From positions 124,001 through 188,000 of the forward strand of contig NZ_CP109149.1 of the NCBI RefSeq assembly GCF_035920345.1: a stretch of 64,000 nt of DNA, written 5' to 3'. A program made the position numbers and the translations under genes. This document shows positions 27,537-59,530 of the stretch, piece by piece (within the stretch, counting starts at the first letter, position 1; each line of letters begins with the position of its first letter). Below the pieces are notes generated by a model that worked only from the letters and a program-made list of their open reading frames with translations, did no database searches and had not been told where the DNA came from. Source of the DNA: Nocardia vinacea. Its GTDB lineage: Bacteria > Actinomycetota > Actinomycetes > Mycobacteriales > Mycobacteriaceae.

Positions 27537-28010
27537 TCAGCGCTCATTCGCCCATCTGCGGAACAGTGCGCTCAATTCTTCCCGTGAAATGCCCGGCCGA
27601 GGTTCGGAAAGTACAGACAACCACTCATGGTAGAAGTCGACCCAATACTCGAAGCGGCTCGGTTCCGTAGCAATGCTTTCCAGCATCTCCTCAAAACACA
27701 GCATCATTCTTCTCCAGGCCTCGAAACGGCCATACATGGTAAAGACTGCTTTGATATCGACGGCAGGATTCACATACGATATCCGCGCGATCCATATTGC
27801 AGCAGCCCGAGCTCAATTCGCCTCATCCGGCAAACTAACTATCGCACGCTCAAAGAAGAATATTGCGTTCCAGAGTGGATCACTAGGTCCGGCCAGGTCC
27901 CCGTCGACGGTCCATACTTCGTTTCGATAGAGCAGCAGGTTGGGTCGACAGACGTCGTTGTGGTTGAAGCGCCCGCTGAGTCGACCGGCATCGCTCCCAC
28001 CTCACGCGTC
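27537..28010 (-). pseudogene. Phosphotransferase (APH-fold) remnant with internal TGA
   Basis: Read leftward in the frame of the 27537 stop, the DNA gives LSGRFNHNDVCRPNLLLYRN, EVWTVDGDLAGPSDPLWNAI, FFFERAIVSLPDEAN, a TGA at 27813-27815, then ARAAAIWIARISYVNPAVDI and a helical end EELSALFRRWANER. HNDVCRPN fits the catalytic HxDxxxxN of aminoglycoside/choline-type phosphotransferases, and VDGD, 19 residues after the His, fits the second metal-binding Asp. The TGA may replace a TGG Trp codon. An upstream in-frame stop and the missing N-lobe show it is truncated. It lies directly downstream of the giant gene. Confidence 0.6.
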
Positions 28011-28153: not shown

Positions 28154-31100
28154 TTAGATAGCCGGAGCAGTCGGCCCTGTATTCGTACCTGCAGCGCCGC
28201 CGGACTCACGGTTGCCACCGTTGTTGCGCTCGGGCATGAGCTTTCGCCGGAAAAAGGCATAGACGAGCGCCTCCTCGAATGCTGCTTGGCGGTTGTCCCC
28301 TGTGTCTTCATGCCCGCCCTCGGTGCTTTCGTAGTACCAAACCTCGTAGCCCAGTTCTTCCAGCCGCGCCGCCATCTTCCGGGCGTGGCCGGGATGCACA
28401 CGGTCATCATTTGTGGAGGTCCGTAGCAGGATCGGTGGGTACTGCCGGTTCAGGACGGCCTCGTGATAGGGGGAAATGATGTGGGCTGCCTCGTCGGGAT
28501 TGTCGGGGTGCCCGTATTCGGCGGCCCAGGGCGCACCTTGTAGCAGCAGGTGAAAACGCTGCATATCCATCAGCGGAACCTCCGCTACAAGAGCGCCGAA
28601 CAGGTCGGGATAGCGGGTGAGCATCCCGCCCATCAACAGGCCGCCGTTGCTCGCGCCGATCGCTCCGAGTTGTTCGGGGGTGGTGATGCCTCGTGTGACG
28701 AGGTCCATCGCTACCGCGGCGAAGTCCTCGAACACTTTGTAGCGGCTGGCCTTCACGGCGCTGGTATGCCATCGCGGCCCGTACTCACCGCCACCGCGAA
28801 TGTTGGCCACCACCGAAATTCCGCCGTCCTCCAGCCAGGCCAAACCTTCGGCACCGTCGTAGGCAGGAGTCTGCGAGTCGCTGAACCCACCGTAGCCGTG
28901 CACGATGGTCGGACCGACGGCGCCACGGCGACGGGTGACGAAGTACGGAATCCGAGTGCCGTCCGCCGATGTGGCGAAGAACTGCTCGGTGACCACGTCG
29001 GTGGCATCGAAGACGGCCGGCTCCTGCTCGACCCCCCGCCCCTCGCCGTCCATTGAGCCAGCCAGCACCATGGGGGGAATAGTGAATCCGCTGACAGACA
29101 GCAGGAATTCGTCATCACCCGCCAGCCGGTCGAGGCCGATGACCGACGCCGTCGCCATCTTCGGGACGGCATCAAGGGACCGGCGGGTCCAGCCCACGGG
29201 AGTTGGAGTCAGAGCTTCGATCTTGGTCTGAACGTCGGACAGCAGCGTCAGCAGCAGGTGATTCGCCGTCCACCCCCAGTCGTGCAGAACAGTATGCGCA
29301 TCCGGTTCGAACAGCATCTCGAACTTACGGTCTCCGGCGAGGAAAGCATCGATATCCGCAACCAGCAATGAACCGGCAGGATACTCACGGCCGTTGATAT
29401 TCCACGGACTTCCCGGCTCCACCATCAACCGATTCTTGACCCACCGCACCTGTGCGTCGGGCGGAACGTCGAGCCGCTGTAGCGAACCGTCGGGCTGCAC
29501 CAGGTAGTACTCGCGGTTGCCGAAGCCGATGAACCGGATGACGTGGTGCGGACCCATACCGGGCCACTCTCCGTGCGCCACCACGCCGTCGGTGAATTCA
29601 CCCTCGAGAATTGTTTCGGCCTCGCTCAGCGGTGTTCCGCGACGCCAGCGTTTGGAGAAACGGGGATAGCCGGCCTGGGTAAGGGAATTCGGTCCGAAAT
29701 CCGTTCCGACACAGACCGTGTTTTCATCTACCCACATGAACCGGTTCAGTGCCAAAGGAAGAGAGAATCCTCCTTCTTCCGGGCTTACGAATCGCTTTGT
29801 ACGGAGATCGAATTCGTGCACTTCATTACGGTCGCCGCCGCCCTCGGACATGCTGATCAATGCGCGATGCTGCCCGTCACGCAGCACCTTCGCCTCTCCC
29901 CACACCCAGTTCTTGCCTTCGGTGTCGGCCAGCGCGTCCAGATCCAGCAGGACCTCCCACGCCGACTCACCATTGCGGTAGTCCGCGGCGGTTATGCGTC
30001 GCCATACGCCCTTCGGGTGCTCCTTGTCGCGGCGGAAGTCATAGAGCCAGTCACCATAACGGTCTGGGTGCGCCACGCGGTCCGCGCTGTCGAGCGTGGC
30101 AAGAATCCGCTCCCGCAGATCGTGGAATTCCCGGGAGAGCGTGAACTTCTCGATCGTCCACTGGTTGTGCGCGTTGACCCAAGCCTGAGTGTGCGGGCCT
30201 TCCTTCTCGAGCCACAAATACCGATCGCCGTGCAACTCGTCTAGCTTGCGTAGCAGTTCGGTGAGCTGTTCGGTTGCTCCGTCGATGCGAGCGAACGCGG
30301 TGGCCTTCCGTTCTGCTTCGGCGAGGCGATATCCACGCTGGAATGCGGTCTCTGTCGGCTTCGGTTCGGTCGCGGTCACCGCGATGGGTTCGATGGTCGG
30401 TCCGTGTTCGCCGGCGATGTGGTCGGCCATGCGGCGGAGGGCGCCGTGAGCCATGTGTTCGATCGTGGGTTGGTCGAGCGGCATTATCTCCGCCATGCGG
30501 TCGGGAGGTATCCCTTGGCTGAAGAGGCCGACGATGATTTTCTTCTGGTCGGTCCCGAGTTGTTTGAGTGCGGCCTGCAGCTGCCATGGGGCTGCCTCGG
30601 CCAACGCCGCGGTCTGTGTGGTGAGCCTCTGGTGTGCGGGACTGTCATGCACGAGTGACTCGATCACGCGGTCGGCGGCCTGGTTTGCCAGGTGGATCAC
30701 TTCATCCCAGCTGGAGGTGAGGTCCTGGACTATTCGGTCGGTCGGATGCTCTGCTTGCAGGTGCCGCAGGATGTTGACTTGGTTGGGAACGAGCCGGCCG
30801 AGCGCCGCCTGCATCTGCTGTATGGTGGCATTGGCGAGTACCTCCCGGACATCGGGCTCCGCGGTGCCCTCTGCCAGGGCAGCACAGAGCGCGGCGCGGA
30901 ACTCTTCGAACCCGGCTGGTGCCCGCTTGATCGGGGGTTCCGTTGCCGCAGGCTGCTCGGGTGATGGTGCTTTGCCCGAATTCGCGTGCGCGGCGTTGTC
31001 GACCCCGGGGGCGTTGGCGAAACCCAGCCACGGGTGACCGATACCAGGCTTACCGATCGGCGCATCAGCAGCGTCCCTCGCCTGCTTCCAGTGCAGAGCG

Positions 31101-34100
31101 AATGTATCCGCGGGGTTGGGCGGGACGCCTGCCGGTGCCGGCCCCGGACGACCGGGCGACTCCGAATTCGCCGCAACCGAAAACGATTGGTTCCACTGTG
31201 GGCGATCGCCCAGCCTCCTGTCCCCGCGATGGACATGTGGATCCACCCACCCCGGTCGAGCCGCAGCCGATACATCCTCACCGGGATCCCCGTCGCCACT
31301 CCCACTGCCCGTAGCCGATTCGGGACCGGTCGGCGGACTCTCAGGGGCACTCCGCGTCCGGGGTGCAGATCCCTGCTGCTCCGGTGCGGTTGTCTGGGCC
31401 GTGCGGTCGATCGCGATTGCTGAGTCAGTCTGCTGAGCTAGGGGCCGCACGTCGCTCCAGGGCGTCTCGCCTCTGTTTTCCGAGGTGGCTCCGTCCTCGA
31501 TGACGTGGACTTCGATGTGCCGTCCAGCGGAGGCTGGATCGGCTTGTTGTCGCCCGAACGGCCATTTCCACCGAGGCTTTCCTGGGTTGCGATCGCTATT
31601 GGTATTGGTGGGTGAGGTTCGAGGTTTTCCTCTTTTGCGTGGGGTTGGTTGGTTGGGTTGCTGGGGTTGGAGGCTGGTGAGGTTGCCGTCGGTGCCGCGG
31701 GTGCAGTACCAGACGAGTAATTCGGCGTCTTCAATGTTGGATATGTCGGGTTGTTGCCATTCGCTGCTAATACGGACGCAGGGATTACCGGCGGGGTCGG
31801 GGTTGGTGATGGTGGTGTCGAAGACGATGCTCTGGCCATAGGTTCCGGTATCGGTGATGACATAGCGGCGGTCGTCGAAAAACACGACGGCAGTGTCGAT
31901 GTCGCTATCTGTCTCCACACGGTCGATGACTTGACCGAAGAGGTTGTCGGCATCAGGGTCGAGGTGGATTTTGACGAGTTGGGTGGCGATGGCGTCTCTG
32001 AGGTGAGTCCATTTCTTCTGCCATGGTTTGCACTTGGGTTCGTTGAGACCGAGTGTCCACACGACTTCGGCTGTTCGGTTGATGCCGTCGAGCAGCTTCC
32101 GGGCGCGGGCGGCGACAGCCGGGTCCTGCAGTGCCTTATCTTCTCCGAAGATTCGGCGGATGACGGACACGAACGCGATGGAGCCGAATGCCGCGGCCAT
32201 ACCTATGGCTGTGGCCGCGGGTCCCCATGCCCCGATTGCGCTGGCGGTGCCGAAGGCGCCCAGCCCTCCTGTGGCCATAGATGTCATATTGCGGAGGGCA
32301 CCCACACGTCCGCTCACTTCATCCGGGACCGTCCGGTCCACATGGGAGTTGATAGCAGTATTGCTCGGATAGAAGACCATCCAGGCGCCTGCAAGTATCC
32401 CCGAGGCCGCCCAGGGGCCGGGGGCGGTTGCCATCGCGATGGCCGCCCCTCCCGCGACGACCAATTTGGCGGTGAGTAGCCTGCTGATTCTGACTGCTTG
32501 CGCCCGCTCGTCCTCCAACCGCTTGATGCGTACCGCGTTCGAGAGAAAGATCGCGATAGGAGCGATCGTCGCCGCCAGTCCCTTCTGCCCCGGTGAAAGC
32601 CCGGAGTCGGCGACCAGCCACGTGACCTGAGCCGTTTGCGCACCTAGAAAGAGCCAGGTGATACCCCAGTTGGCGTTGATTTCTCGAAGCAGGCGATCGT
32701 CCTGGAACGTGTGCACACCTTCACGGATCGACTTGATGAAGCTTTTCCAGGCACTTTCCGATTCTGAAGTTTTCGGCGCGGCCGGGGTGTCCGGCACCAG
32801 CGGCATGGTCACAGCGCTCAGGAAGTTCGTCCCGAGATTGATGGCCGGAGGGAAAGCGGCGCCGAGTGCCAGCATCGGAGGCCCGAGCCATTTTGCGACG
32901 AGTGTTATACCGGCCCCTGAGACGGAATGGAAGCGGTTCAGTCCATCCCGTGCGTCCTTGCCGACCTCCTCTCGGAGGTACTTGAACATCGCTGCCCTAT
33001 AGAGCTGGTTTGAGACTACTTCCAGCATTATTGCTGCGAGGAGCCCGGGGATGGTGAATGAATTTTGAGCCTCCGCCGCGGCAATCGCTAGCAGTGCTCC
33101 TGCCGAGCCTATGCCCAGACCCCACAGCATTACCTCCCTACGCGAACCGCGGTCGGCCCGATCTCCCGCGAACAGTGAAACGCCGATCGGTAGCACGCTG
33201 GTGATCAGCTCACTGACACCCAACGCCTCAGGTCCGACCTCCGCCATGTAAAAGCTCATCGCAGTTGACGCCAGTACCATTCCGCCCGTGTGGATTTCCT
33301 CGGCGGCGATGCGTATGCCGATAGCGGGGTTGGCGCGAATCACGCTCAGCAGGGATACGGTATTTTTAGCTTTTTCGTTGTCATCCGACGGCTCAGTTTC
33401 TCGGGAGGGCTCGGATCCGTTCGGCTCGATACTGGAATCATTCGCCGCGGCGGATAGCTCCAGATAATCAGGTATAGTCTCGGGCAATAGGTCTTCGCGC
33501 GGCAAAGCAAGCATTTCGGGCAGCAGTGCTTCTAGATCAGCTCTTCGTTGCAAGGCTTCCGCTATTTGGGCAGAGGTGAGGCCCGGGGTAGCGATGATGG
33601 CTTGATTGGCGTTCCAGCTGGCGATCCAAAGCCTGAGCTTCGGTACCATCTCTTCACTGGCGACATGATTCAGCGCTGCGTCATCCCGCTCCCGGTCGCC
33701 ACCAACCGAGGGCATCGCATCGTCCTCGGCAGCCGCTACCTGCCCGCTGCGTTCATGCACACCAACCGCCAATCCATCTCGGTCGGAGCCGTCGGGTTCG
33801 GGTTGTGTGTGTTGGTCGGCTGTGATGCTGGTGGGCTGTTGTGTGGGTTCGTGGTCGCTTTCGGTGGTTCGGTCCGCGGATCGGTTTCCCGGTGCGCGGG
33901 AGGTTGTTTTCGGCGCGGGCTCGGGCGCATCCTGCTGCTTGGATGCGTCGTCGTGCGGTTGCGGGTTCTCCGGTGTATCCCGTTGTTTTCGTTTACTGAA
34001 ACGCAGTGCCCACGGCTGTCCGGTTCTGGGATTGAGAATGAAATCCTGTGGTCCGCCTTCGGGAAGATTGGTGGCCTTCGCTTCCCTGCGCCTCTGATTG

Positions 34101-55100: not shown

Positions 55101-58100
55101 AACTCGTAGCCCGACGTCTCTGTTTTCTCGATCATCGAGTCGATGGCAGGCCACCCAGGTTTGCCGCCCTGGGAGCGAGTAGGCATGTCGCCGTTACCGT
55201 CTGATACCTCGACCAGAGCCCACCGATTGCCCGGCTCCCCATGAATCGACGCCGACACGCGCGGATCGCGATCCCTGCTGGGATCGAAATCAGGCCGGGT
55301 GAGCGCCTGCAGCGCCAACGCCACCGCGAGCGCCGCGGCGGTATCGACCTGTTCGGCATGCGGCCACTCTCGCAGTGCCGTGCGAACGGCTCGGTCGGCC
55401 GCGGCCTGTGCTTTTGACTGCTTGGGCTTCGATTGCTTGGGCGTGGAAGGCCCCGGCGCCGGTGCGGCGGGAGCCGCCGAGTCCTCTTGTGACGACTGGG
55501 GCGGCGGTGGCGGGGGTGGTGGTGTCTCCTCGGGAGGTTTGCGTTTCTTGCGCTTCTTCTCGTTGGGATCGTCGCCCATCGTTGCTTGGGCTCGGGTGGT
55601 CAGACGCTTGCGTTCCACCGGCTTTCGAGGCGATGCGGCGGGTTGCAGGTGTGGTACTCCGCCGATGGCCGGCACGCCGCTTTCTCGGGGGTTGTATTCG
55701 AGGCTGTGCGGGTTCAGTTGCGGACCAGCGGGTTTCTGCGGAGCGCCGGGAGTTTCGGGGTTGGGTTCGACGGCGTACTTGGTCCGCAGGATTGGTGTGT
55801 CGGGTTTTTCGGGGACAGCGTCCTGATGGGATGGGTGTGCGGTCGAATCACGTGGCAGGGGAGTGACTTCAGGAGGGCGTGTCGGTGTGGGGTTGGGGGT
55901 GTTGTCGTCGGGGTTTTGAGGTGCGGGGGTGAAGCGGGCGGAATCGGCGGGCAGGTCGATCGGGGTGAGGGCGGGTGTGTGCGGGATTATGGGTGTGGCG
56001 TTCTCAGGTACCTCGTTGTCGAGTGGGTAGGTGATGCTGGGGTTGGTGATGTAGTCCCCTGCTGGGGTCTTCTGCACGTTGTGGTCGCGGTGGTCTTGCC
56101 ACACATTGTGGTCGCGGGGGTCTTTCTGGACGTTGTGCTCCCATGGGTTGGGCACAGTGGTGCCCGGTGGGGTGGGGAACTCCTCGGGGTCGGCGTCGGG
56201 TTCGTCGTCGGTAGCTGGGCCACTGCTCGGCGCACCGAGTGGTTTGATCGAGCCTTCAGCTGCGGCGTCGGGATGATCGGCTTGGGTGACGGGTTGCCCG
56301 CCGGACGTTGCGGGCTGGGGTGCCGAAAGTCCAGTAACCGCATCTGGATTCGACGCCCCGTTCCCGCCCAGTGCCGCTGCACCAGCCAAGGCTGCTGGTG
56401 GGATCGCTTGGGCTGCGAGGTTGTTCGCAGCAGCGCCGGTGATCGGTGTGGCCATGTGCGGCTGCTGTGGTGAATTGGCTTGCGCGGCCTGCGGGTTGAT
56501 GTGCTGCTGTGGTGTGTTGGCTTGTGCGCCCGGTGGTGTGGCGTGGGTTTGAGGTGGGTGTGGGTTGGCGTGGGGTTGTTGGGGTAAGTTGGCTTGTGGT
56601 GTGGCGTGGGGCGTGTTTGCTACAGGTGTCGGAGCGGGTGTTGCCGGTGGGCTGGCGGGACCAGGCGTTGTACCCGCCTGCGCGGTTGGGCTCTTCGCCT
56701 CCGTCGGGGTGGCGGGCGGCGTCGGGTTGGCGGGCGGTGTCGGGCCGGTCCCGCTGCCCGGCACTGGTTCGACCGGTGCGGTGCCTGCGGCGTGTGGCAT
56801 CGCCGCGGGGGAGTTGCCGGTCGGTGTGACCGGTTCGTTGGGAACCGGCTCGTAGTCGAAGAAATCGAGGTCGAGGAGGATCTCCTCGTCGGACGGTGGT
56901 TTGCCAGGTCCTTCGCCACTCGCGGGCGGTCGCGGGCCCGATCCGCCTCCGGACGGTGAATCCCCGTGTGAGACAGGCGGTCTCGCTGTGACGCCCGGCT
57001 CATTGCCGCCGCCGGTGCCGCCGAGATCTTTGGCGGTGCCGATGTGGGTCTTGCTCTCCACATGGGTGTTGGCATTCATCGTCAGCACCGATCCCGGTGC
57101 GGCGCTGTTGGGTTGGCCGTCGGCGGCGGCGACTGGTCCGGCCAGGCTCATCTGCGGACTGCTCTCGGGTCGGCCGGTTTGGTATTGGGCGGTGCCGGGA
57201 GGGTTGGTCGACGACCAACTTCCCGATGCGGCCAAGGTAGGTTCGGCTCGTGCGGCTCCGAGGTTGCCGGCGATTAGGTCTTGCTGGCCATTTTCCCAAC
57301 GACTTGAGCCGTGGCTGGGGTCGGGCTTGTTTCCGGGGGAGGACGGCGGCGTGCCCGGGGGGGGATCCGATAACGGTGGCGTGTCGCCCTTATCGAGGTT
57401 GCGGAAGGCCTCCTCGTATGACTTACCCTCGAATTCTGACTTGCCGAGCTCGTTGATCGCGGCTTCCAATGACTTGATCTCGGCGATGGTCTCCTCGTGT
57501 GGCCGTGCAGCGGAACCGTCGTTGTTGCTGCGCTGGCTGACCCGCTCCGGTTCTGGTCGGACCGGGAGGGCTTCGCGCGACCTGTTGTGCTGGGATCCGC
57601 CGATCTCGGGGATGGTCTCCCCACGCGACCGAGGTGCGTCGGCGCTGATGCCCGGCCTGGTCGAGTCGGGCACTGATCGGATCGGGAGGCCGTCGCTACT
57701 GCCTCGGGATCCGCCGATCTCGGGGACGGTCCCCGTAGAGGGCCGGGCGGCGCTCATGGCTCCGGTGACGCGCACTGCCACGCCGATGCTCGTGATCGCG
57801 CCACTGGCGCCACCCATCACCATCATCTGGACAAGGAGTCGGCCGGTGAGTTCGGTGTCGGTGAGCTCGGATACGACAAGCGCGGCGCCGGCCCCACCCG
57901 CGGCTCCGCCGGCAACGCTGGCGAGCACGATGGCCACGGTGCGTCCCGTCGCGCGAGTGAGCGCGGGCAGTACCACGCGGGTAACCAGCGAGCCTGCCAG
58001 GCCGCCGCCGCCACCGGCGGCCGCCGCCACCCCCACCTGGCCCCAGTCCATGTGGGTGCGGCGTCCGGGTTTGCCTTGGCCCTGGATGATTTGAAGCTCT

Positions 58101-58660
58101 TGTGCACCGGCCACGACGCCGCCCATGGTGAGTGCGCCCATGATGGTCGCGCGAATGGCGAGCGCCATGGTGGGGAATCGCTCCATGAAGGCGGCGATGT
58201 TTTGGAATAGGGTGGTGATGGTGCCGCGGCGGGCGGCGGCGGCGGCGATATCGGCGGCGATGCGGTCGCTGGCGGCTTTCATCGGTACGGCGGTGTCGAT
58301 GAGGAGGTTGGCGAGCAGGACCGCCGCGATACCGATGACGATGTACTGCTCGAGTTCGATCGCGTTGGCGAAGTCGTAGAGCAGGGTGGCCATACCGTCG
58401 GCGTATTCGATTTGATTGCGCGTGTTGGCGATCTCGGTTTTCAGCTGTTTCTCGATCGCGTCGCCGGCCTCGCCCTGGATTGCTTCGGGTACTCGTTGTG
58501 CGAGGTGTTCGAGCTGCCCCAGGGTGACGGTGAGCCGTTCGGCCGAGCGTGCCCAGGCATCAGCGGTGTCGCGGATGCCAGCCGGATTACCGTTGGGGAT
58601 ATGGCCGACTATCCAGCGCGTCACCGAGTCCGGGAAGTCGGGCGGGATGGTGACACTCAT
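28154..58660 (-). CDS. Giant WXG100/CpnT-like polyvalent protein, 10,168 aa
   Basis: This is one uninterrupted frame of 30.5 kb encoding roughly a 1.1-MDa protein. It starts with a CpnT-type WXG100-like head plus membrane helices, which is the family reason to expect export by a type VII or related route, and continues through Pro-rich linkers into more than a dozen domains (see separate entries) to a C-terminal prolyl oligopeptidase. The domains are joined by linkers, six of which carry the motif TPWS or TPWT. Some modules are degenerate repeats of others. The long frame with normal codon use argues for selection. The start ATG 58660 has only a weak ribosome-binding site. It is the third gene after the small genes at 59530 and 59273. 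Toxin or effector function is inferred, not shown. Confidence 0.9.
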   Translation of the reverse strand: MSVTIPPDFPDSVTRWIVGHIPNGNPAGIRDTADAWARSAERLTVTLGQLEHLAQRVPEAIQGEAGDAIEKQLKTEIANTRNQIEYADGMATLLYDFANAIELEQYIVIGIAAVLLANLLIDTAVPMKAASDRIAADIAAAAARRGTITTLFQNIAAFMERFPTMALAIRATIMGALTMGGVVAGAQELQIIQGQGKPGRRTHMDWGQVGVAAAAGGGGGLAGSLVTRVVLPALTRATGRTVAIVLASVAGGAAGGAGAALVVSELTDTELTGRLLVQMMVMGGASGAITSIGVAVRVTGAMSAARPSTGTVPEIGGSRGSSDGLPIRSVPDSTRPGISADAPRSRGETIPEIGGSQHNRSREALPVRPEPERVSQRSNNDGSAARPHEETIAEIKSLEAAINELGKSEFEGKSYEEAFRNLDKGDTPPLSDPPPGTPPSSPGNKPDPSHGSSRWENGQQDLIAGNLGAARAEPTLAASGSWSSTNPPGTAQYQTGRPESSPQMSLAGPVAAADGQPNSAAPGSVLTMNANTHVESKTHIGTAKDLGGTGGGNEPGVTARPPVSHGDSPSGGGSGPRPPASGEGPGKPPSDEEILLDLDFFDYEPVPNEPVTPTGNSPAAMPHAAGTAPVEPVPGSGTGPTPPANPTPPATPTEAKSPTAQAGTTPGPASPPATPAPTPVANTPHATPQANLPQQPHANPHPPQTHATPPGAQANTPQQHINPQAAQANSPQQPHMATPITGAAANNLAAQAIPPAALAGAAALGGNGASNPDAVTGLSAPQPATSGGQPVTQADHPDAAAEGSIKPLGAPSSGPATDDEPDADPEEFPTPPGTTVPNPWEHNVQKDPRDHNVWQDHRDHNVQKTPAGDYITNPSITYPLDNEVPENATPIIPHTPALTPIDLPADSARFTPAPQNPDDNTPNPTPTRPPEVTPLPRDSTAHPSHQDAVPEKPDTPILRTKYAVEPNPETPGAPQKPAGPQLNPHSLEYNPRESGVPAIGGVPHLQPAASPRKPVERKRLTTRAQATMGDDPNEKKRKKRKPPEETPPPPPPPPQSSQEDSAAPAAPAPGPSTPKQSKPKQSKAQAAADRAVRTALREWPHAEQVDTAAALAVALALQALTRPDFDPSRDRDPRVSASIHGEPGNRWALVEVSDGNGDMPTRSQGGKPGWPAIDSMIEKTETSGYELPQGAGKTVWFKLFEAAGDGDPSQQAMPDPDVDLIFAPGTVKRGASQARREVRDRLRQAGLPDERIDDVVSVVSDAMQNVARHVPDSDARVRVWRTGRVEIGDNSQNLPQPPKDSDTDAFSDGEADEWALGALLPGTHGRFFQEMVGQLANTWGVNLERARGKTIWFDFGTTGPADVDGNYSATPPAPQSTPGEPTPAAASDPRADTTPATPDDQCDNAGDGRPPTDGEQATDPVLQRAKQGDPAAFQKLRNRHGREILEFVLEQLGVRPAKGDAPAQSVLFAQAINLAQAVNRAVFTNAERQQWVFVEGDDVTGALQRMARNMLERRLKAAPLQTSNKLTTTPDPEPRTGVPEIDTETTPHTTDDADKRPEPSSSESEPSNHGLTDQEVEVVRMVASGMSNKAIADRLDRSESRVKFYLKAIGDKLGIHGRHGIVNAARASGIVGDEDIAESFQEMPSGILTEQEVKVLDLVADGMSNKDIGVAMGLSWLTVKAHLARIGGKLGTGDRAGMVARALHARILPVTHSGHALGHNVLTEAEIEMLALVAEGMTNKEIGVVVSADVVRSPDDVKEQLNRIGDKLGIRERAGMVGRALRAGILPLADPVAEEPAPMPGRDVLSETEFEILSLVAEGLTNRQIGEARAMSPATVRSLLLRIGFKLRAHDRTAMVEAALDRGIVLNTGVPASADSGHGGGFGSNGPSIGGPVTVEDTNALVGEQGHTPHNRGGSATDAPPPGPITHVHDSDTDRAARDLSQQPERGGGGGQAPGPETQFYNDADPAVDHGLFKRRKVEANWVLNNFGPVNPGPQKPNNAPTSGAPPETTPSEQESDAAQGSGSSQNSNSAPQDATGHPSDPPSPAAPQSADDDTASQQPSTPNTAAASTTDATPAQTSSSANTGEGDSSTTSSDPTNPNELGNHADGEHGRGARIMTDTALAIGTDVTQHGKTVWVEYKPPPRSYPASLDDTLDVAPGRVRRSDGAAMVATPWTKRGESVEGPLVFHTPPSDTPGVGANPPHSASDAPTERAVQADARGLDDAGVGNGASHGNQPAQVSPRSSNTARVEGQSPASAETEQRVGASEQSAGADGAALDRNDALWRGEEPDPPTRTAECELAKRTLVDLLRSRHPRLTEIGFEVIGIDDRDIGVGAVRDIARAADYVLTKYPHIDVPIIRIRDDINPLVGGAAIGNPDTGRVHEIGVSRGFIISPEDFRDEFDGEFFPQGTGDPMYDLMIILFGAAIDIATGGEISSNEEDILSAGYEELRSAGHVDIDREVWEEQIPCGGGNLVAVSFADIEINGDKPYTPQAVVYKALSNAWKRVLPAEPEVVRQELAAALREQERARREEESARREEESARREEESARREEEARRRQAVADALAERFGGDNPERGRDWRDALWRGGPALDPRLGSDEAELAKRELLTMLTQRHPQVDLIESEWLGPGGSAPRRIGVGAVRDIFRAISTVLTRYPLDNRLQIRIEPTAHVHATKGPRLANSDAFVNDPLLDGVQVIRMTWLAERLEDRVLDKEESWSELYRRAVKARFHPRGTGRPLFDATYHEMGHFLERPVYPASEPAEQAVAVNAILDAGYKEARKAGKFTGKATWLDQFTEFGRKKTREVVAEAFADIEINRVAEFAEQAAAVIAILDAGYQEGRAAGKIHTDKRTWLDEFPEFGPKNTWEAVAEAFADIEIQMGKAAWLFQFPVYGLTNTREAVAVAFADIEIHGGKEYTPQWVLHRAVTMRWAPATDTAADPGTRYAPGGSHSVHALPPTPWSRNNGGIPARGGWSTEPRRGVPVQESVSRYDPGGRDRSAAPRRNPNDLGAPIHTDDTADRSSTGQPDEPDSSPSENTAVELSPSARRVLDAAMADVEEVAAEALRPVRDLGVDVTSLYRKEAAAIERSIEILRARQGVRFDALLRRLVVDEQAARTLAEVMAIAGAMPDIRAQYRSLAEHIESYRRYAHEVRTAMAILAARDVLAAEGAEPFIDDNGRLVEGIGVAPGRVVVASPLRGQQALLDFMVEGSSELAARGVQIDYRLVLVDEDGQVTVEPISGQHDEPEPIDRLYEDRDTVAWINSLTDERPFAEKLAEANDSGESFREILKDGSGDHTMSESVVLISYKNGFKVIVKTVRDVDQADAEELGAIILEAIGARPPKVIRLSEISERVLAMEYIPGVVARDLSGNGKDPWHYFFRTPAARRQGLGDTLLRPPDRHEGQNWILGHGVHIVPIDNALDFTEDWPGAGFTGDEDWARTGFHEHFATFRDGVWTWVQHHVPRAELGAIRQRIIAAEPKFERLHRPSWYEGVLRIFTEVEEHAAESPAPPSAEHTDVVLALEQLRDRLVLRYYAELMDGPRIVGSRKDWTWRDWPRVVAYLEQRFDGYPDPHTHRDITILKRLTQLHLHAQMNEVSADELDGTWPELTDEYLAALAQRLADLEEGAQYPALRSESDEEWLERFRHEIGSAADEQSAVAPANTVTPAQSENDSATTTSGESTAPPPTGGQSVVTPHIPDSLGPSSSTSNTKAGPTPWTNQRSAPAGVPPNPAETFDLPPKRARYAAGEPIAEQAGTGDPWLGFANAPGVDNAAHANSGKAPSPEQPAATEPPIKRGPAGFEEFRAALCVALSEGTAKPDAREVLANATAEQMHAALGQLVPDQVNILRHLQAEHPADRIVQDLTHSWDEVIDLANQAADRVIESLVRDSLQHQRFTTLTAALAEGTPSQLRDALEQLGTDQKRIVVGLFSQGKSPADMAAIMPLGQPTIKLIADGAVRRMADHIARKRGLTVEPVAMLTAEPEPTENAFQRGYRLAEAQRKAAAFGRIDGATAPLSDLLRRLDKLFPTPSVGQRPARMEVTHRPVHAVARSLVGDVPPEAAVGRLGDRVAGDSMLLGRDAVDAVFGERMRLGSRLEVSVPEEAYRYLRGQAEWTETPAADGTARLVNAEMSIGMGWNAGPSHGELLRRSWKTPAGIHVASLPDVYAVLQERGLPQDLRDTAAIRRKLLDPTRPPLPEHVLAREIDALRSVLPEVALDHPDAEVAVRLGANGMHICSTLYGDPAIGRANQIIGDLELAEYRVPATYHNGFGLVEDGRLLQEHLGNIAARPHERLDAAAADTYSDAVYGNGRRSNNPEGYDELRSADLARAHALSLGYEPDRANRIHRMIMGTAFDERTKAQAGKHDPDPLVQAIAGIDLQTLAQPSSLEDTFDLIPEDLTAERHSRDRILGRTIVDHGLRIRSTEEAQAIIDEYAGYRPTIDGVPSDRDVMDAVANRLAGDAGFRDPVTGHRYPPTWTLDNPQLRAALSKKARELSQKLADREITATQALEQIRRHTAAMQEKLGVRDDAPHGPRSSPSTFSRASTQQTPLAREQFVVRAQGAAVGAIGIEGPRVAPASESSRSEFVVRVQGHDPSDEQARMRAASQAWDWLDEQLFDWPAGKIDDAGLELADRVTTALENSDDGTVRVALEEMGEPGERHARVTVGDSSFEFGEAYELPRWLADAIAPVRHVRLNVPGELAIAVGYAQIPQIAKTLASFDKLGGPVEVVQDNIEHGVRHRSTVNRGRLLDSRSDVEAENIELRFGDSVVELNIYSFRDQQFKDGLRAFDLTGREGRTVPLDKFASAIVEKLQQRRLNRIEAQAADYTPDSRREWFQRQEEWDRADQTETANPATTSQQDQTSVGLGFRPWETSRQHGLWTDYPEQQAADYSNSYGSEHYGVTAEIEEGVLRFTIKAGRGTPTGRVMFRQLMDSIPRPVHEIHGHWDFYGPGAGLVRPHEVTAENEPRWLGDNLETFNALMQDLFLSPEDAARNTFTGKMAAEYGYTRVRFITLEGRGGERAVEGLRSYGEFTEVDVRFGKPEGPHIRPETTTTAVRRTRTTTGYPNPNANETKAEAAQHLDETEPPEEARREQAQRDGYAELSEVDPADPAQLTRERDNAEPDKAGSKPDVEGVTRQDALHPDTADEAELMRYSSFAYLTERPDAAPGELTGEAWFNSPQRYAWERAWLIENGPSLGALAAMTLASLEAEILLGLPNTRPDPLLIVQERPRLPGEMLPIWKLRTLPGKDPDQASVIGLLARRFSLDELLQHAYISPVGARPLLQADLDLTIRMLKPAERPRFVRVPRDGVYTAHYPGCRSLPNRSPDYLRTRPLADVLLRQIGSRTFCEYLMNDVVAPYQRREAHQLLDSYVGRTLSAEDRISQWFATTVTSMLDAPPEAAPQLLRQALHAGMSAQDRAVQQFATTVSELLSGHTDFGRYLHHRGLPETQAFVEDIRRTVGRHHPPEAIGQVPFISTLLEPPPGRATPERSAARTPWSNQQTFARRRSAPADVPTRVPHPSPTPRSRNNGGNRAPGERVPDVDQPGAADRPVDRVGRKPSTHHPAAHQADLDKAPKVDEALDLPRHRREAEPRVANPGRGVPEQAFVFARDPDGQNWGDASPNVGRHDSADSMETPPDATPPQTTASTTPTGPVESRFRDAADKIDRSGWSLEAREAGKRLVRLLFDLTKVEQGKDVVQPTDDDVGPLLTLDSSEGDRQLASLKADSIPGIPLNGFSLVVREFVYRQGVLRSWIDDMFGRGSAGDYQMVVGAVLEELAAQLGATGAGWLQVTMYRGSDGDCELSAEFGRHGVGATAKLELEVPEGGELADAELTLTMWPDPEQDPDSVIAGVRGVARELTAGRPAGRANSLGDAAERLLRADAAEHDDPVMASGLRFTARRDRIDLAVCDPQTGRSTHQQTVFDSVDAVAKEASRRARDEMLGNHWTDADDLSTAANVVSRRLHSMLTEDRIDRPLRLDASVFGEQGDKILTVELHSPGDRSEDFPAVIELWQRPRPSDLTPGAAIQFFSEHWWLALLHRSAGVEPGRKATSPVAVTDERAEWLVSAGADRDAVLFSADKLVRLPEPRPDLPFMRGVMARACTLVETMIDERLLVPGRDGVVTWTIGMGVRGLECRVAVTYRSPRARMDGSEDATRAGAGWEGATRAGEYFWGDGWTTWAAFDLLPAVEAQLAALFASVPPHGRGPAAANTTIFDIGRHVNAMREIASSALTFESNAEAAEFARAHLGDPVTAVSERGPVDWTPQSRPLPQHLVVMFALELDEVDADNPESLPGALLPITGNSTVVIVTSPWNRLPDNNIGVALAPAGTLVTRAEDDTVTGNPRLVLLDDHVMTVTSVVDGDQTTAYGFLGKPPDWRRGTTLPSGSAPTQPNTPAVDAVKPSTESQRTPVPDTNPSDTAQDTGHHTDRAAEPGDPRAPVDDSRADQCPSPAKPEPGAPEATTPWSRKLRGSMTLQFHPADPAEAAGLPARKQHRLFTDPNTATGYPSGPVTFHNHPNGQEWDDPRDVARRNRQRAERSTGAGDNEEAGMPPADLSGLTPDEQLLGAAIGNRKPVNWKELVQGTQILLLGEDHGHDSVRAYLATQAAALRAAGVTHYCIEAPPHPAFDALNAGQEADLSGVMAGPGWEGGWAEVVAAMAAEGIQIVPFDVLHPSSPHGSPLRDIRESHMAKTIARVAQDNPAAKIAVLIGRDHLIQDKKKWSLKTGCLMPAVSARLTAAGHTTTSVSMWGSEAGQHEPIRWHAERIGIHDETFIADLRSLQQTDLLRLNWASDVMLHVGGSGSWHTESGPATSQSAPTHDPAPSTSGQARRIQHTGGKTAASRKPAPTSIEVPDNVQLAVPRSGDISVDSEKLATVHADVGALTHDWANTEQAVATAYLATELASMHVHLGNGAEMSVSKAGEPGHRVLRVVISDIGEAPSTLPAYFVSLSLERLQLLTHRYGHEESEGTTVTWFEFDESGPDFAPAGLAAVHGVDPAADDPVAPGSPASGAEPVGQGETAGIDVASLLGAIDAQQLRLIREGIAAELETATYDPRTDTIEHTDADRLRKLTDIAARLDELHTAIQQPDNTTPQRIQRLVHHYHATIEWLAALTDADNATAGLPTDLADTDLAGRTQPTLRQRIEHARQAVDRYSEADQRVRQLHAAFRTDEHSDGSARQPESRSEEKAESRAEVSPAEREQTEVPRPQQEAQSESGQRAPEQHHHLPPPVQQDLGSIAGYSDIGVGPTGRGHHNNQDAFAIAKLDVAGKPIQVAVVCDGVSSSRDGELAARAAADTARDYLVAALAEVGSDGQFDRVSMVQGATETAQQAVRALAELPEYRGLPHPPACTIVLALVEHDQVTLDWEGDSRAYWLDENAPNSESLTTDDSIVPLLVDAGIPEAEALEGAYAHRIFRYLGMPPGSEQPSHAKTIPLPRKGHLLLCTDGLWGKTFAAESLADVLRHTQEQSPGDLPAALRAFQQNALREKERDNITGVLINHTPPATTTGYSTAKSGGGAPPLGPGLSFHPHAGPREVLDVRPGVPTPGTLQAPNPTSGIGRPDMWFRWNPEQNPSQPDNQNTTATSRDDVPRVGTSASGPSANKPRQPGGTDPAAPPGHLERTAPERLERVREALAVAKRQRERLEGLVAQTAELWDEEPGPLDAAREERWRKLHNKMRTALAIAADDDPEQAAARAEAVRTEGGDGHLVEFAEQFPLLDTLVRQIAERDQRARQVELLAAAAYAYNKREQARILRDEAAAELRVPYKDLAPDSPRREQSEREFDDLHAQLADLIEVEPDELDVDRVEDVLVMARRPVGDPQRPADADHRVALGSQWLELHELVENARRFDEYNAEAQRLDALADTDNIVAAPRGLETTDTAKDRKPVPTGQGRGKGEGKVMHARGFTSADFASLSPSDQHAYAMREIDYNALTFDSNAEAAEFVAHLGDPVTAVSERGPVDWTSQSRRLPRHVVVTFALQLDQLDAGTPESLPGALLPITGNSTVVIVTSPWNRLPDNNIGVALAPAGTLVTRAEDDPVTGNPRLVLTPNVMRVTRVVVDDKETTNAVVDDQKTTAYGFLGKPPGGHRGTTPPSGPARAQPHQNTMAKGRHQPEIAERSESDDRQATTRSSAAAGSTPGSTKQPPAAGEQNQKEPSRPTLWQQTNAHDIGKNAPGKAEDFGDFGDVDELGNQRRREAKATNLPEGGPQDFILNPRTGQPWALRFSKRKQRDTPENPQPHDDASKQQDAPEPAPKTTSRAPGNRSADRTTESDHEPTQQPTSITADQHTQPEPDGSDRDGLAVGVHERSGQVAAAEDDAMPSVGGDRERDDAALNHVASEEMVPKLRLWIASWNANQAIIATPGLTSAQIAEALQRRADLEALLPEMLALPREDLLPETIPDYLELSAAANDSSIEPNGSEPSRETEPSDDNEKAKNTVSLLSVIRANPAIGIRIAAEEIHTGGMVLASTAMSFYMAEVGPEALGVSELITSVLPIGVSLFAGDRADRGSRREVMLWGLGIGSAGALLAIAAAEAQNSFTIPGLLAAIMLEVVSNQLYRAAMFKYLREEVGKDARDGLNRFHSVSGAGITLVAKWLGPPMLALGAAFPPAINLGTNFLSAVTMPLVPDTPAAPKTSESESAWKSFIKSIREGVHTFQDDRLLREINANWGITWLFLGAQTAQVTWLVADSGLSPGQKGLAATIAPIAIFLSNAVRIKRLEDERAQAVRISRLLTAKLVVAGGAAIAMATAPGPWAASGILAGAWMVFYPSNTAINSHVDRTVPDEVSGRVGALRNMTSMATGGLGAFGTASAIGAWGPAATAIGMAAAFGSIAFVSVIRRIFGEDKALQDPAVAARARKLLDGINRTAEVVWTLGLNEPKCKPWQKKWTHLRDAIATQLVKIHLDPDADNLFGQVIDRVETDSDIDTAVVFFDDRRYVITDTGTYGQSIVFDTTITNPDPAGNPCVRISSEWQQPDISNIEDAELLVWYCTRGTDGNLTSLQPQQPNQPTPRKRGKPRTSPTNTNSDRNPGKPRWKWPFGRQQADPASAGRHIEVHVIEDGATSENRGETPWSDVRPLAQQTDSAIAIDRTAQTTAPEQQGSAPRTRSAPESPPTGPESATGSGSGDGDPGEDVSAAARPGWVDPHVHRGDRRLGDRPQWNQSFSVAANSESPGRPGPAPAGVPPNPADTFALHWKQARDAADAPIGKPGIGHPWLGFANAPGVDNAAHANSGKAPSPEQPAATEPPIKRAPAGFEEFRAALCAALAEGTAEPDVREVLANATIQQMQAALGRLVPNQVNILRHLQAEHPTDRIVQDLTSSWDEVIHLANQAADRVIESLVHDSPAHQRLTTQTAALAEAAPWQLQAALKQLGTDQKKIIVGLFSQGIPPDRMAEIMPLDQPTIEHMAHGALRRMADHIAGEHGPTIEPIAVTATEPKPTETAFQRGYRLAEAERKATAFARIDGATEQLTELLRKLDELHGDRYLWLEKEGPHTQAWVNAHNQWTIEKFTLSREFHDLRERILATLDSADRVAHPDRYGDWLYDFRRDKEHPKGVWRRITAADYRNGESAWEVLLDLDALADTEGKNWVWGEAKVLRDGQHRALISMSEGGGDRNEVHEFDLRTKRFVSPEEGGFSLPLALNRFMWVDENTVCVGTDFGPNSLTQAGYPRFSKRWRRGTPLSEAETILEGEFTDGVVAHGEWPGMGPHHVIRFIGFGNREYYLVQPDGSLQRLDVPPDAQVRWVKNRLMVEPGSPWNINGREYPAGSLLVADIDAFLAGDRKFEMLFEPDAHTVLHDWGWTANHLLLTLLSDVQTKIEALTPTPVGWTRRSLDAVPKMATASVIGLDRLAGDDEFLLSVSGFTIPPMVLAGSMDGEGRGVEQEPAVFDATDVVTEQFFATSADGTRIPYFVTRRRGAVGPTIVHGYGGFSDSQTPAYDGAEGLAWLEDGGISVVANIRGGGEYGPRWHTSAVKASRYKVFEDFAAVAMDLVTRGITTPEQLGAIGASNGGLLMGGMLTRYPDLFGALVAEVPLMDMQRFHLLLQGAPWAAEYGHPDNPDEAAHIISPYHEAVLNRQYPPILLRTSTNDDRVHPGHARKMAARLEELGYEVWYYESTEGGHEDTGDNRQAAFEEALVYAFFRRKLMPERNNGGNRESGGAAGTNTGPTAPAI
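28155..30270 (-). other. Giant protein: C-terminal prolyl oligopeptidase
   Basis: Residues about 9464-10168. The S9A start (DRYLWLEKEGPHTQAWVNAH) is followed by a beta-propeller and then the peptidase core (VHGYGGFSDSQTPAYDG, NIRGGGEYGPRWH). The catalytic triad is Ser10004 in GASNGGLLMGG, Asp10086 in TNDDRVHPGHA and His10117 in EGGHEDTGDN, in the right order. It looks active. Confidence 0.9.
30250..31040 (-). repeat. Duplicated HTH-like module, copy B
   Basis: The second copy of the same module, about 16.4 kb from copy A and directly before the prolyl oligopeptidase. Confidence 0.9.
32130..33365 (-). other. Giant protein: MFS-type membrane domain
   Basis: Residues about 8433-8844. Ten to twelve hydrophobic segments carry an MFS loop motif between helices 2 and 3 (FAGDRADRGSRREVMLWGLG) and a central cytoplasmic loop. 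The second half ends GAWMVFYPSNTAINSHVDRT. It resembles permeases of the DHA/TMS type. Confidence 0.75.
34420..34890 (-). repeat. Duplicated module of the giant gene, copy B
   Basis: Encodes ALTFDSNAEAAEFVAHLGDP and the same continuation as copy A, about 5.1 kb away. Confidence 0.9.
36165..36965 (-). other. Giant protein: complete PP2C phosphatase domain
   Basis: Residues about 7233-7500 hold all PP2C motifs in order: GRGHHNNQDAF (Asp7255), VAVVCDGVSSS (Asp7276), LDWEGDSRAYWL, HLLLCTDGLWG and RDNITGVLI. All four metal-binding Asp positions are kept, so activity is plausible. Confidence 0.85.
38270..38995 (-). other. Giant protein: TraB/ChaN/erythromycin-esterase-like domain
   Basis: Residues about 6556-6797 include ILLLGEDHGHDSVRAYLATQ (Glu6588 and two His) and IAVLIGRDHLIQDKK. 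This is the GExH...GxxH pattern of the EreA/ChaN/Tiki superfamily. Confidence 0.6.
39540..40010 (-). repeat. Duplicated module of the giant gene, copy A
   Basis: Encodes ALTFESNAEAAEFARAHLGD, PVTAVSERGPVDWT, LPDNNIGVALAPAGTLVTRA, AYGFLGKPP. It is nearly identical at DNA level to 34420-34890, including about 130 bp with only a few mismatches. Confidence 0.9.
42830..43050 (-). other. Giant protein: bacterial sugar-transferase-like segment
   Basis: Residues about 5205-5278: PDPLLIVQERPRLPGEMLPI, WKLRTLPG, VIGLLARRFSLDELLQHAYI, SPVGARPLLQADL. These match the order of motifs in phosphoglycosyl transferases (QER, KLRT, LRRxSLDELPQ, GPRP). The usual first membrane helix is not adjacent. Catalysis is doubtful. 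Confidence 0.55.
45060..46560 (-). other. Giant protein: HD-phosphohydrolase-like region
   Basis: Residues about 4034-4534. The second half (DLARAHALSLGYEPDRANRI, HRMIMGTAFDERTKAQAGKH, AIAGIDLQTLAQ) follows the H...H/D...D pattern of HD proteins, with a DVMDAVANRLAGDAGFRDPV tail. The front half is unrecognised. Confidence 0.4.
46600..47400 (-). repeat. Duplicated HTH-like module, copy A
   Basis: Encodes GFANAPGVDNAAHANSGKAP, VLANATAEQMHAALGQLVPD and a sigma-r4-like end (LGTDQKRIVVGLFSQGKSPA). Almost identical to 30250-31040. The first 110 bp differ at only a few sites. Confidence 0.9.
48130..49560 (-). other. Giant protein: kinase-like domain (PI3/4-kinase or HipA style)
   Basis: Residues about 3035-3510. 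A helical front is followed by GFKVIVKTVRDVDQADAEEL (Lys in the beta3 position), VLAMEYIPGVVARDL (hinge), then LLRPPDRHEGQNWILGHGVH with DRH and Asn, and IVPIDNALDF with an Asp-Asn in the metal-binding position. The order fits the lipid/actin-fragmin-like kinase fold. Confidence 0.55.
49860..51775 (-). other. Giant protein: duplicated zincin-like module
   Basis: Two copies share AKRxLxxxLxxRHP, IGVGAVRDI and a FADIEI motif. Copy 2 has the zinc-protease motif HEMGH at residues 2744-2748 (50417-50431). In copy 1 the same place reads LFGAAIDIATG, so its site is lost. Copy 2 ends in a ladder of about 60-residue repeats, each closing with AFADIEI. Confidence 0.65.
51001..51080 (-). repeat. 21-bp tandem repeat encoding RREEESA heptads
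   Basis: Four copies (three complete, one partial) of a 21-bp unit are essentially identical at the DNA level. They encode REEESAR repeats inside a charged coiled coil (residues about 2520-2555) that joins the two zincin-like copies. Confidence 0.9.
53060..53975 (-). other. Giant protein: four tandem LuxR-type HTH domains
   Basis: Residues about 1564-1865 carry four GerE/LuxR helix-turn-helix units: LTDQEVEVVRMVASGMSNKA, LTEQEVKVLDLVADGMSNKD, LTEAEIEMLALVAEGMTNKE and LSETEFEILSLVAEGLTNRQ, each followed by a recognition helix and a LG/LR..R.GMV-type end. The third has a short insertion. Confidence 0.85.
54105..54410 (-). other. Giant protein: sigma-factor-like region
   Basis: Residues about 1419-1517 open with DPVLQRAKQGDPAAFQKLRN and RHGREILEFVLEQLG, the pattern of sigma-70 region 2. 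No promoter-binding Trp/Tyr cluster is evident, so it may be decoy-like. It sits between the ATPase pair and the LuxR array. Confidence 0.5.
54600..55390 (-). other. Giant protein: two anti-sigma-type histidine-kinase-like ATPase domains
   Basis: Residues about 1090-1200 and 1213-1353 each look like a serine-kinase anti-sigma domain. Copy 1 has AAALAVALALQALTRPDFD and ends GAGKTVWFKLF. Copy 2 has DDVVSVVSDAMQNVARHVPD (N-box Asn) and ends ARGKTIWFDFG. A truncated third copy (residues about 2102-2142) ends HGKTVWVEYK, and a degenerate one (about 6851-6976) ends TTVTWFEFD. Confidence 0.7.
57720..58660 (-). other. Giant protein: WXG100/CpnT-like head with membrane helices
   Basis: Residues 1-100 are helical (WIVGHIPNGNPAGIRDTADA, WARSAERLTVTLGQLEHLAQ), as in the N-terminal domain of mycobacterial CpnT. 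Hydrophobic segments follow at about residues 106-125 (YIVIGIAAVLLANLLIDTAV), 165-185, 220-240 and 250-270 (Gly/Ala-rich). The motif TVPEIGGS/TIPEIGGS/TIAEI repeats three times just after, at residues about 315-400. Confidence 0.75.
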
Positions 58661-58958
58661 CGGGGCTTCGACCGCCCTCTCGCACCCTCCAGCACCTGTC
58701 GGCCCCCCGGTACGGCCTGCGACGCGGAATTCGCTCCGGCCCGGATGATGTCAGGATCGACCTGCAATGATTGCCCCCATATCCGACTCCCTTTTCAAAC
58801 CCTCAGCAGTGGAACCGAGCAGGAATTGGCTGCCGCTAGGTCTCGCTGAATCGACAACGCAGCCGTGTCGGCGACGCGAGACAGCGGGATCAGGTTCGTG
58901 GCGGTCTGTATCTGTTGGATTTGGCGATGGTGAGGTCAATGAGCGTTTCGTAGTCGCG

Positions 58959-59273: not shown

Positions 59274-59530
59274 GAACTGAGGGCCTTGTCCGCCGCGGTC
59301 TCGAGCCGATCCGCCACTGCGGCACACTTATTCGCCCAGTCCGACCAGCCGTTGGCGCTCCGCCGCATCGCAGCCGGGTTCTTGACCGAAAAATGCTCTA
59401 GCGCTATGCCCCTCAGCCGCGCGGGAAAGTACTGCGGAATATGCATCACCACTAGCGTCAGTCCTCTCGCGATCTCGACGACAAAGTCGGTACGGCCAGC
59501 CCCGTCGGGCCGGACGCGCTCCGACCACAT
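59270..59530 (-). CDS. Small helical protein, first gene of the giant-protein operon
   Basis: This 86-residue protein starts at ATG 59530, about 50 bases downstream of the promoter at 59564-59617. The end (AAMRRSANGWSDWANKCAAV, ADRLETAADKALSS) is a helix with a central Trp, similar in flavour to WXG100/EspC-type ESX substrates, though the WxG itself is absent. It is coupled by a 4-bp overlap to the next gene. Family is not proven. Confidence 0.55.
   Translation of the reverse strand: MWSERVRPDGAGRTDFVVEIARGLTLVVMHIPQYFPARLRGIALEHFSVKNPAAMRRSANGWSDWANKCAAVADRLETAADKALSS

Follow-up and report, generated by a model that had tools for sequence, protein, structure and literature searches.

Closest described systems

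CpnT of Mycobacterium tuberculosis joins one channel/WXG-type head to one C-terminal NAD-glycohydrolase toxin, MARTX toxins are exported chains in which several effector domains are combined with RTX repeats and a cysteine protease, and the polyvalent proteins of phages and conjugative elements carry many enzymatic domains in one travelling chain. The subject of this report is a giant gene, here called A, in a 64,000-nucleotide stretch of the Nocardia vinacea genome (the window; C1:124001-188000 of a single contig of 10.36 Mb), whose product we tentatively place in a family of giant effectors of type VII secretion. Like CpnT, A has an N-terminal PF25547-type domain followed by a hydrophobic, Gly-rich stretch, and in its relatives a WXG-like gene lies upstream. 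The giants differ from CpnT in carrying at least 20 further modules instead of one and in forming chains of 10,168 to 40,805 residues whose head is in frame, and A ends in a prolyl oligopeptidase rather than in a single C-terminal toxin. Where CpnT-like substrates have an adjacent WXG-type partner, A probably retains only a stub. The likeness to MARTX toxins lies in the several effector domains per chain and, in A, a putative export, but no RTX-repeat or MARTX cysteine-protease family is listed among the Pfam families of pieces of A. Like polyvalent proteins A has many domains, but it carries a type VII head, and no link to a virion or to conjugation turned up, none having been searched for.

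Giant multi-toxin proteins of actinobacteria have been known since 2012, the longest being SACTE_5178 of Streptomyces (13,652 amino acids, aa), with ARTs, caspases, anthrax-lethal-factor-type peptidases and MCF1-SHE (PMC3482391). A resembles these proteins in exceeding 10,000 aa and in having several enzymatic domains of effector type, presumed to act as such; it differs in that no ART, caspase, lethal-factor-type or MCF1-SHE family is listed for its pieces, and the Nocardia giants differ from that example in having transcription-factor arrays and anti-sigma-type domains, with a WXG-like partner gene that overlaps the giant in relatives. Giant open reading frames (ORFs) of Omnitrophota reach 39,678 aa, with peptides seen, few annotated domains and a proposed role in the coat or in predation (PMC10066038); they share the size range with A, which differs in its many recognisable modules and type VII head. 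The longest coding sequence given for the N. cyriacigeorgica genome is a non-ribosomal peptide synthetase gene of 43,689 bp (PMC3751702), and neither Nocardia nor WXG is mentioned in the main text of a survey devoted to huge proteins (PMC11573180). Open-access literature searches did not return the present proteins by name in the titles or abstract beginnings among the matches listed, and the coupled partner, chains with as many as 22 LuxR domains, the size reached in Nocardia and the TPW[STN] linker motif were not found in the portions of the literature at hand.

A constrained giant frame and its headed relatives

The claim of the sequence-only reading that a single stop-free gene of 10,168 codons spans positions 28154-58660 of the window is exact, and we add that the gene lies on the minus strand. 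The frame is unbroken from an ATG start to one stop, and the stop-free stretch extends back to 58750. The second-longest stop-free frame in the window has only 950 codons, so that 30 kb without a stop is not due to chance. The GC content at third codon positions (GC3) is 0.61-0.80 along the gene with a mean of 0.72, slightly under the median of 0.78 for sampled genes of the same genome. Twelve pairs of shared or duplicated blocks, linkers among them, were compared for the ratio of nonsynonymous to synonymous substitution rates (Ka/Ks), which is 0.26-0.55 in 11; the six pairs of A with a paralogue give 0.32-0.55, and the part of the linker at residues 310-1090 that is common to paralogue B gives 0.32. 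An excess of third-position changes (p <0.05) was found in 8 of the 9 pairs tested. Protein-level constraint is shown in most blocks of the gene. A promoter scan upstream of A found none.

Comparison with other Nocardia genomes, as the sequence-only reading had proposed, shows that headed giants recur in the genus and that A is not unique, being a family member with intact relatives of up to 40,805 codons. A head match at E 1e-3 or better is present in 106 of the 148 genomes of the genus, N. vinacea included, and among the 150 matches listed at least 32 headed frames of at least 10,000 codons are distributed over at least 28 of these genomes. N. vinacea itself has the paralogues B (13,986 aa) and C (3,378 aa), and its genome contains additional headed frames of 6,874, 1,174 and 790 codons. 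Giants that were read directly and contain no N include an adjacent pair of 21,183 and 11,799 aa in genome G079 and chains of 20,950 aa (G018), 13,762 aa (G045), 13,747 aa (G105), 33,511 aa (G089) and 51,851 codons (G088). Three headed giants stand in a row in G051 (C1:1859999-2062104), those of 40,805 and 10,820 aa being adjacent and the third having at least 14,817 aa; the heads of these three form a diverged class. WXG100_2 scores above the Pfam cut-off in both complete G051 giants, both G079 giants and G105 and below it in G089, G018 and G088, and the four heads aligned from G051, G089 and G088 are only 14-20% identical to the head of A. Two antisense ORFs (1,006 and 1,043 aa) were excluded from the giant set. 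Short headed frames of 1,138-1,680 codons that also have a kinase match occur in nine genomes (G062, G071, G081, G003, G052, G145, G053, G086 and G089). Outside the genus, a single-sequence family-wide search reached only 6 genomes with a longest frame of 1,860 aa. The idea of a genus-restricted family was dropped because a class-wide profile search found headed frames of 12,978, 12,384, 9,927 and 8,442 codons in other genera. In a protein search for head-bearing giants the sole relative was P0001 (6,861 aa).

Partner gene, cargo and module map

The type VII connection of the family is supported by the neighbouring genes. In five relatives (B, G045, G024, G018 and G105) a WXG-like partner gene lies directly before the giant, and in the first four the TGA stop of this 551-592-codon gene overlaps the giant's start; in G105, where the start codon of the head is uncertain, the partner's TAG coincides with the base at which the aligned head begins. 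The N-terminus of the partner is WXG-like at values below the Pfam cut-off (WXG100 E 0.004 for C, WXG100_2 E 0.012 for B), and TPW occurs in each of the six partners read, with two motifs each and three in that of C. That gene, upstream of C, stops early, and the region for its C-terminus is in a different frame. The C-terminal domain of the partner resembles residues 2307-2377 of A, within zincin-like module 1 (local hidden Markov model (HMM), iE 1.8e-4), and stretches of G079 and G024; these matches come from an unfiltered local HMM search for the domain that covered 15 giants. A YbaB-family gene (E 1.1e-12) precedes the partner gene in B and G024; the short ORF that stands ahead of the YbaB gene in G088 has no match to WXG. 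The G088 giant is followed at a distance of 11-26 kb by genes for PPE, EccE, EccB, EccA, EccD and EccC, and the N. vinacea genome has four EccC-type frames, one of them about 55 kb from B, so that ESX machinery is present as judged from these genes. According to a review, actinobacteria other than mycobacteria, Nocardia included, have ESX-4 as their sole type VII system (PMC11217815); in contrast, the ESX locus of G088 (C1:7104332-7119317) has EccA and PPE, and there are four EccC-type frames in N. vinacea.

Two features of composition accompany this connection. Cysteine makes up 0.22% of A and 0.11-0.31% across ten giants, compared with 1.10% pooled over 73 sampled ORFs of the N. vinacea genome (bootstrap minimum 0.64%), the baseline being a greedy selection, from ten 20-kb stretches, of ORFs with no fewer than 250 codons in which GC3 exceeds GC2 by 0.2 or more. 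This depletion fits a life outside the cytosol and is not proof of it. The motif TPW[STN] occurs 27 times in 15 giants where 2.04 occurrences are expected, 26 of them in linkers, and TPWS is the most enriched of the 4-mers ranked, which were those seen at least 12 times. Some of the copies may share descent.

Domain searches of the kind that the sequence-only reading suggested placed WXG100_2, GerE (four copies), PP2C_2, MFS_1, Peptidase_S9_N and Peptidase_S9 above the Pfam cut-off in A. Its CpnT/WXG100-like head and its intact C-terminal prolyl oligopeptidase were both borne out, and among the internal modules it listed the phosphatase and transporter are above the cut-off; the kinase-like and zincin-like labels, as well as the anti-sigma- and sugar-transferase-like ones, fall below it or have no Pfam match and were assigned from profiles, conserved motifs and PDB or fold matches (Table 1). 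The head contains transmembrane-like segments at residues 107-125 and 244-262. The oligopeptidase aligns over its full length with 4hvt (E 3.5e-89); with a stand-alone oligopeptidase frame of the same genome it shares 57% identity across almost its entire length. In the PP2C, kinase-like and glycosyl-transferase-like modules the residues of active-site type are invariant across five giants each. The residues taken as catalytic in the oligopeptidase, PP2C, zincin-like and papain-like modules are those that we assume to be so, the ChaN/erythromycin-esterase label is presumed from a motif, and the papain-like label is likewise in part our assumption. A PDB sequence search with kinase-like module K gave nothing related, and Foldseek with a poor model of it returned kinase or phosphotransferase folds, at low TM-scores, in 46 of the 50 matches listed (522 in total). 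The model of module X, with a predicted local distance difference test (pLDDT) score of 54, was not used. Other helix-turn-helix (HTH) Pfam models overlap the four GerE matches, linker pieces at residues 421-1059 and 9021-9199 gave no match in a Pfam scan, and matches to Linocin, TipAS and Mitofilin were taken as chance, as was that between the ChaN-like module and biotin synthase (E 0.003, far under the cut-off). A 96-nucleotide tandem repeat lies within zincin-like module 2 (window 49931-50309).

Gene-control domains are a prominent part of the cargo. When five other giants were scanned in pieces, the Pfam families matched most often among those listed included GntR, GerE and sigma-70 region 4, and there were also matches to Gln_amidase and to HTH models of the LacI, Crp, IclR, MarR and XRE types; these counts cover the first 25 of 66 and 37 families, from overlapping pieces in which several HTH models may fall on one site. 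Local HMMs, built for the anti-sigma and LuxR domains from sequences of A, B and C and refined by iteration over the ten proteins searched, found LuxR domains in 8 of these ten giants, with 22 and 15 in the neighbouring G079 giants, 7 in B, 5 in G105, 4 each in A and G018, 3 in G024 and 2 in G045; C and P0001 have none. Relative to their length the largest chains contain few, with 4 in that of 40,805 aa and 5 each in those of 33,511 aa and 51,851 codons. The proposal of the sequence-only reading that one chain holds a set of effectors and signalling parts is right in that many unrelated modules are joined, but the set is not merely one of effectors, the most frequent recognisable domains of the other giants being DNA-binding domains of transcription factors. 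Inspection of B by eye showed SecA-like, XRE, GntR, methyltransferase-like, alpha/beta-hydrolase-like and M3-peptidase-like stretches.

The order of this cargo is not fixed. In a comparison that left out self hits and hits of 60 columns or fewer, many modules of A were matched by relatives that occupy different positions in other giants; among the matches listed there was no relative in giants for the oligopeptidase, ChaN-like, zincin-like and sigma-like modules or the 6200-6399 duplicate, and the sigma-like module of A has a relative in the G088 giant. Frames of at least 4,000 codons hold 92 of the 119 listed matches of the kinase-like module and 65 of the 72 of the glycosyl-transferase-like module. 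The synonymous divergence (Ks) between A and B is 0.27 for the head, 0.43 for a linker and 0.79, 0.97 and 1.20 for three modules, as expected of a mosaic. A contains two internal duplications with 75% and 72% amino acid identity, which were measured in separate comparisons, a first self-comparison having listed none. A constant head with variable, recombining cargo, together with a displaced C-terminal module behind the stop of A, is the arrangement of polymorphic toxins.

Table 1. Features of giant gene A and its flanks, with positions in the 64,000-nucleotide window and residue numbers of A.
Feature	Position	Strand	Evidence
Giant gene A, 10,168 codons	28154..58660	-	Frame and composition analysis
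Head, residues 1-300: WXG100_2 (PF25547, residues 11-145), then hydrophobic, Gly-rich stretches	57761..58660	-	Pfam E 6.7e-09, alignment
Pro/Ala/Thr/Ser-rich linker, residues 310-1090	55391..57733	-	Composition
Two anti-sigma (RsbW-like) ATPase-type domains, residues 1080-1199 and 1226-1355	54596..55423	-	RsbA_anti_sig E 7.2e-07, below cut-off; local HMMs
Four LuxR-type HTH domains, residues 1571-1865	53066..53950	-	GerE E 1.1e-47, 4 stretches; local HMMs
Zincin-like module 1, residues 2290-2510, without HExxH	51131..51793	-	Label by eye
Zincin-like module 2, residues 2575-2935, HEMGH at 2744	49856..50938	-	Label from motif
Kinase-like module K, residues 3030-3655	47696..49573	-	Invariant K285, E296, DRxEGxN, D387; Foldseek
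Sigma-region-4-like module copy 1, residues 3702-4023	46592..47557	-	E 0.0024, below cut-off
Anti-sigma-type ATPase-like domain, residues 4597-4697	44570..44872	-	Local HMM
Module H, residues 4870-5050, common to two other giants	43511..44053	-	Comparison of giants
Phosphoglycosyl-transferase-like module, residues 5138-5490, SLDEL motif	42191..43249	-	PglC E 1.4e-06
Module X, residues 5890-6205	40046..40993	-	Comparison of giants
Internal duplicate copy 1, residues 6200-6399	39464..40063	-	Self-comparison
ChaN/erythromycin-esterase-like module (presumed), residues 6540-6800	38261..39043	-	Motif; weak matches only, HopBA1 E 0.21
Anti-sigma-type ATPase-like domain, residues 6865-6965	37766..38068	-	Local HMM
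PP2C phosphatase module, residues 7228-7500, conserved Asp residues kept	36161..36979	-	PP2C_2; PDB PP2C E 7e-24
Internal duplicate copy 2, residues 7899-8110	34331..34966	-	Self-comparison
MFS transporter-like module, residues 8460-8802	32255..33283	-	MFS_1 E 6.9e-13; only 4 strong transmembrane-like segments
Papain-like module, residues 8850-9022, Gly where relatives have Cys	31595..32113	-	Alignment
Sigma-region-4-like module copy 2, residues 9164-9476	30233..31171	-	E 0.005, below cut-off
Prolyl oligopeptidase, residues 9480-10150; Ser (GASNGG), Asp and His present	28211..30223	-	Peptidase_S9_N, Peptidase_S9; 4hvt
TPWS linker motif behind zincin-like module 2	49781..49792	-	Motif search
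Further TPW[ST] motifs in A	52136-52147, 47513-47524, 42173-42184, 39272-39283, 31454-31465	-	Motif search
Likely stub of WXG-like partner gene, stop overlapping the giant's ATG	58662..58776	-	Short one-frame matches
Truncated second head, 54% to G105 head	59285..59455	-	E 1.3e-13
Decayed C-terminal module behind stop of A, one internal stop	27552..27992	-	41% to last 147 residues of G079 giant, E 8e-18

Elsewhere in the window a Zeta-toxin family gene (PF06414, E 5e-27; 59959-60690, plus strand) lies upstream of the giant on the opposite strand, an AAA_16 ATPase gene (24989-27124, plus strand) is convergent with the giant, and a 948-aa Phage-integrase family protein (425-3268, minus strand) at the window edge hints at a mobile region.

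Competing explanations and significance

The explanation that we favour, at somewhat less than even confidence, is that A is a CpnT-type-headed chain in which Pro-rich linkers connect at least 20 further modules, both enzymes and gene-control domains among them, and that its family consists of giant type VII effectors delivered into other cells; delivery and function are what we infer. Several observations weigh against it. The partner gene was not found at E 1e-3 within 3.5 kb upstream of A, and it likely survives at most as a stub, recognised from short matches to both partner ends (E 0.08-0.8, one 7.8) that are singly not significant, lie in one frame at the expected places and keep the overlapping stop. 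No ESX gene was recognised near A among the window ORFs scanned, and no immunity family was found among seven window ORFs scanned with Pfam in a search that was not exhaustive. The export proposed by the sequence-only reading is accordingly supported at the level of the family, through the partner gene and eccA-eccE, and is doubtful for this copy because only a likely stub of the partner remains. Within the chain, the papain-like module lacks its Cys and zincin-like module 1 lacks HExxH, the membrane module of MFS type fits a secreted chain poorly, and the model of module K is poor (pLDDT 56), none of its Foldseek matches having an E under 0.001. The pair of internal duplicates 6200-6399/7899-8110 shows almost no constraint (Ka/Ks 0.79) and no third-position excess (p 0.35). 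At the level of the family, TPW[STN] is missing in 6 of the 15 giants (the five of G051, G089 and G088, plus G024), and 8 of the 73 baseline ORFs, themselves a simple choice of ORFs, also have at most 0.3% Cys. The 51,851-codon G088 giant may be interrupted, because a recognisable head (E 3.7e-4, below the cut-off) lies just upstream in another frame (C1:6935798-7093059), possibly through phase switching or a sequence error in a repetitive stretch.

That frame split and the general suspicion that attaches to giant frames in GC-rich DNA would be expected if the giants were artefacts of assembly or annotation. We reject this explanation as extremely improbable: A contains no N in a genome that is a single contig, giant frames are present in the at least 28 genomes noted above, and the GC3 and codon-position signals speak against it. 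A serious rival, though one we consider somewhat unlikely, is that the giants are a stockpile of modules in which only the head and perhaps the last module matter, the middle being tolerated because the frame stays open and the length possibly serving as a stalk. The truncated head and the decayed C-terminal module that flank A, the inactive papain-like and zincin-like modules, the unconstrained duplicate pair and the captured oligopeptidase all agree with such a stockpile, but the invariant active-site-type residues of three modules, the Ka/Ks values in 11 of 12 pairs and stop-free frames of 10,000 to 51,851 codons in many genomes argue against it. It is also conceivable, and in our view unlikely, that the giants are regulatory scaffolds inside the producer, with the LuxR, sigma-like, anti-sigma-type and PP2C domains forming its own partner-switching control and the head a membrane anchor. 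The richness of the cargo in DNA-binding and anti-sigma-type domains, the MFS-type module and the lack of a partner at A would suit a scaffold, but the overlapping WXG-like partner gene of relatives, the ESX genes near one giant and the five-fold depletion of Cys would not, and the architecture varies between species, unlike that of a core regulator. A more specific form of delivery, in which the giants are secreted gene-control kits that rewire a neighbour's transcription as type VII-delivered chains of DNA-binding arrays, sigma-like pieces, anti-sigma-type ATPases, a phosphatase and a kinase, with TPW[STN] linker tags marking the units, appears decidedly unlikely.

If the giants are type VII effectors, as we tentatively prefer, the YbaB-family and WXG-like partner proteins together with the head would direct the chain to an ESX system, and the TPW[STN] linker tags might be docking or cutting sites. 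The phosphatase, kinase-like, DNA-binding, glycosyl-transferase-like and peptidase modules would then act in the recipient cytosol, because DNA and ATP are located there and are absent outside, and the DNA-binding arrays and anti-sigma-type domains could interfere with the recipient's transcription. The chains would grow and turn over through recombination, internal duplication and the capture of ordinary genes. Since its own partner is seemingly lost, A would need the partner of paralogue B or may be becoming an orphan.

With the headed frames of 33,511 and 40,805 codons and the 51,851-codon frame 11 kb from ESX genes, Nocardia has some of the largest reading frames known, the longest in the literature consulted being that of 39,678 aa in Omnitrophota (PMC10066038); larger predicted proteins are reportedly described in a preprint. 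The series from short headed frames to giants is a natural one for testing how such chains are built, moved and cut. If exported, the giants would extend type VII cargo to a new order of size and would raise the question of why up to 22 transcription-factor domains are carried on a secretion substrate.

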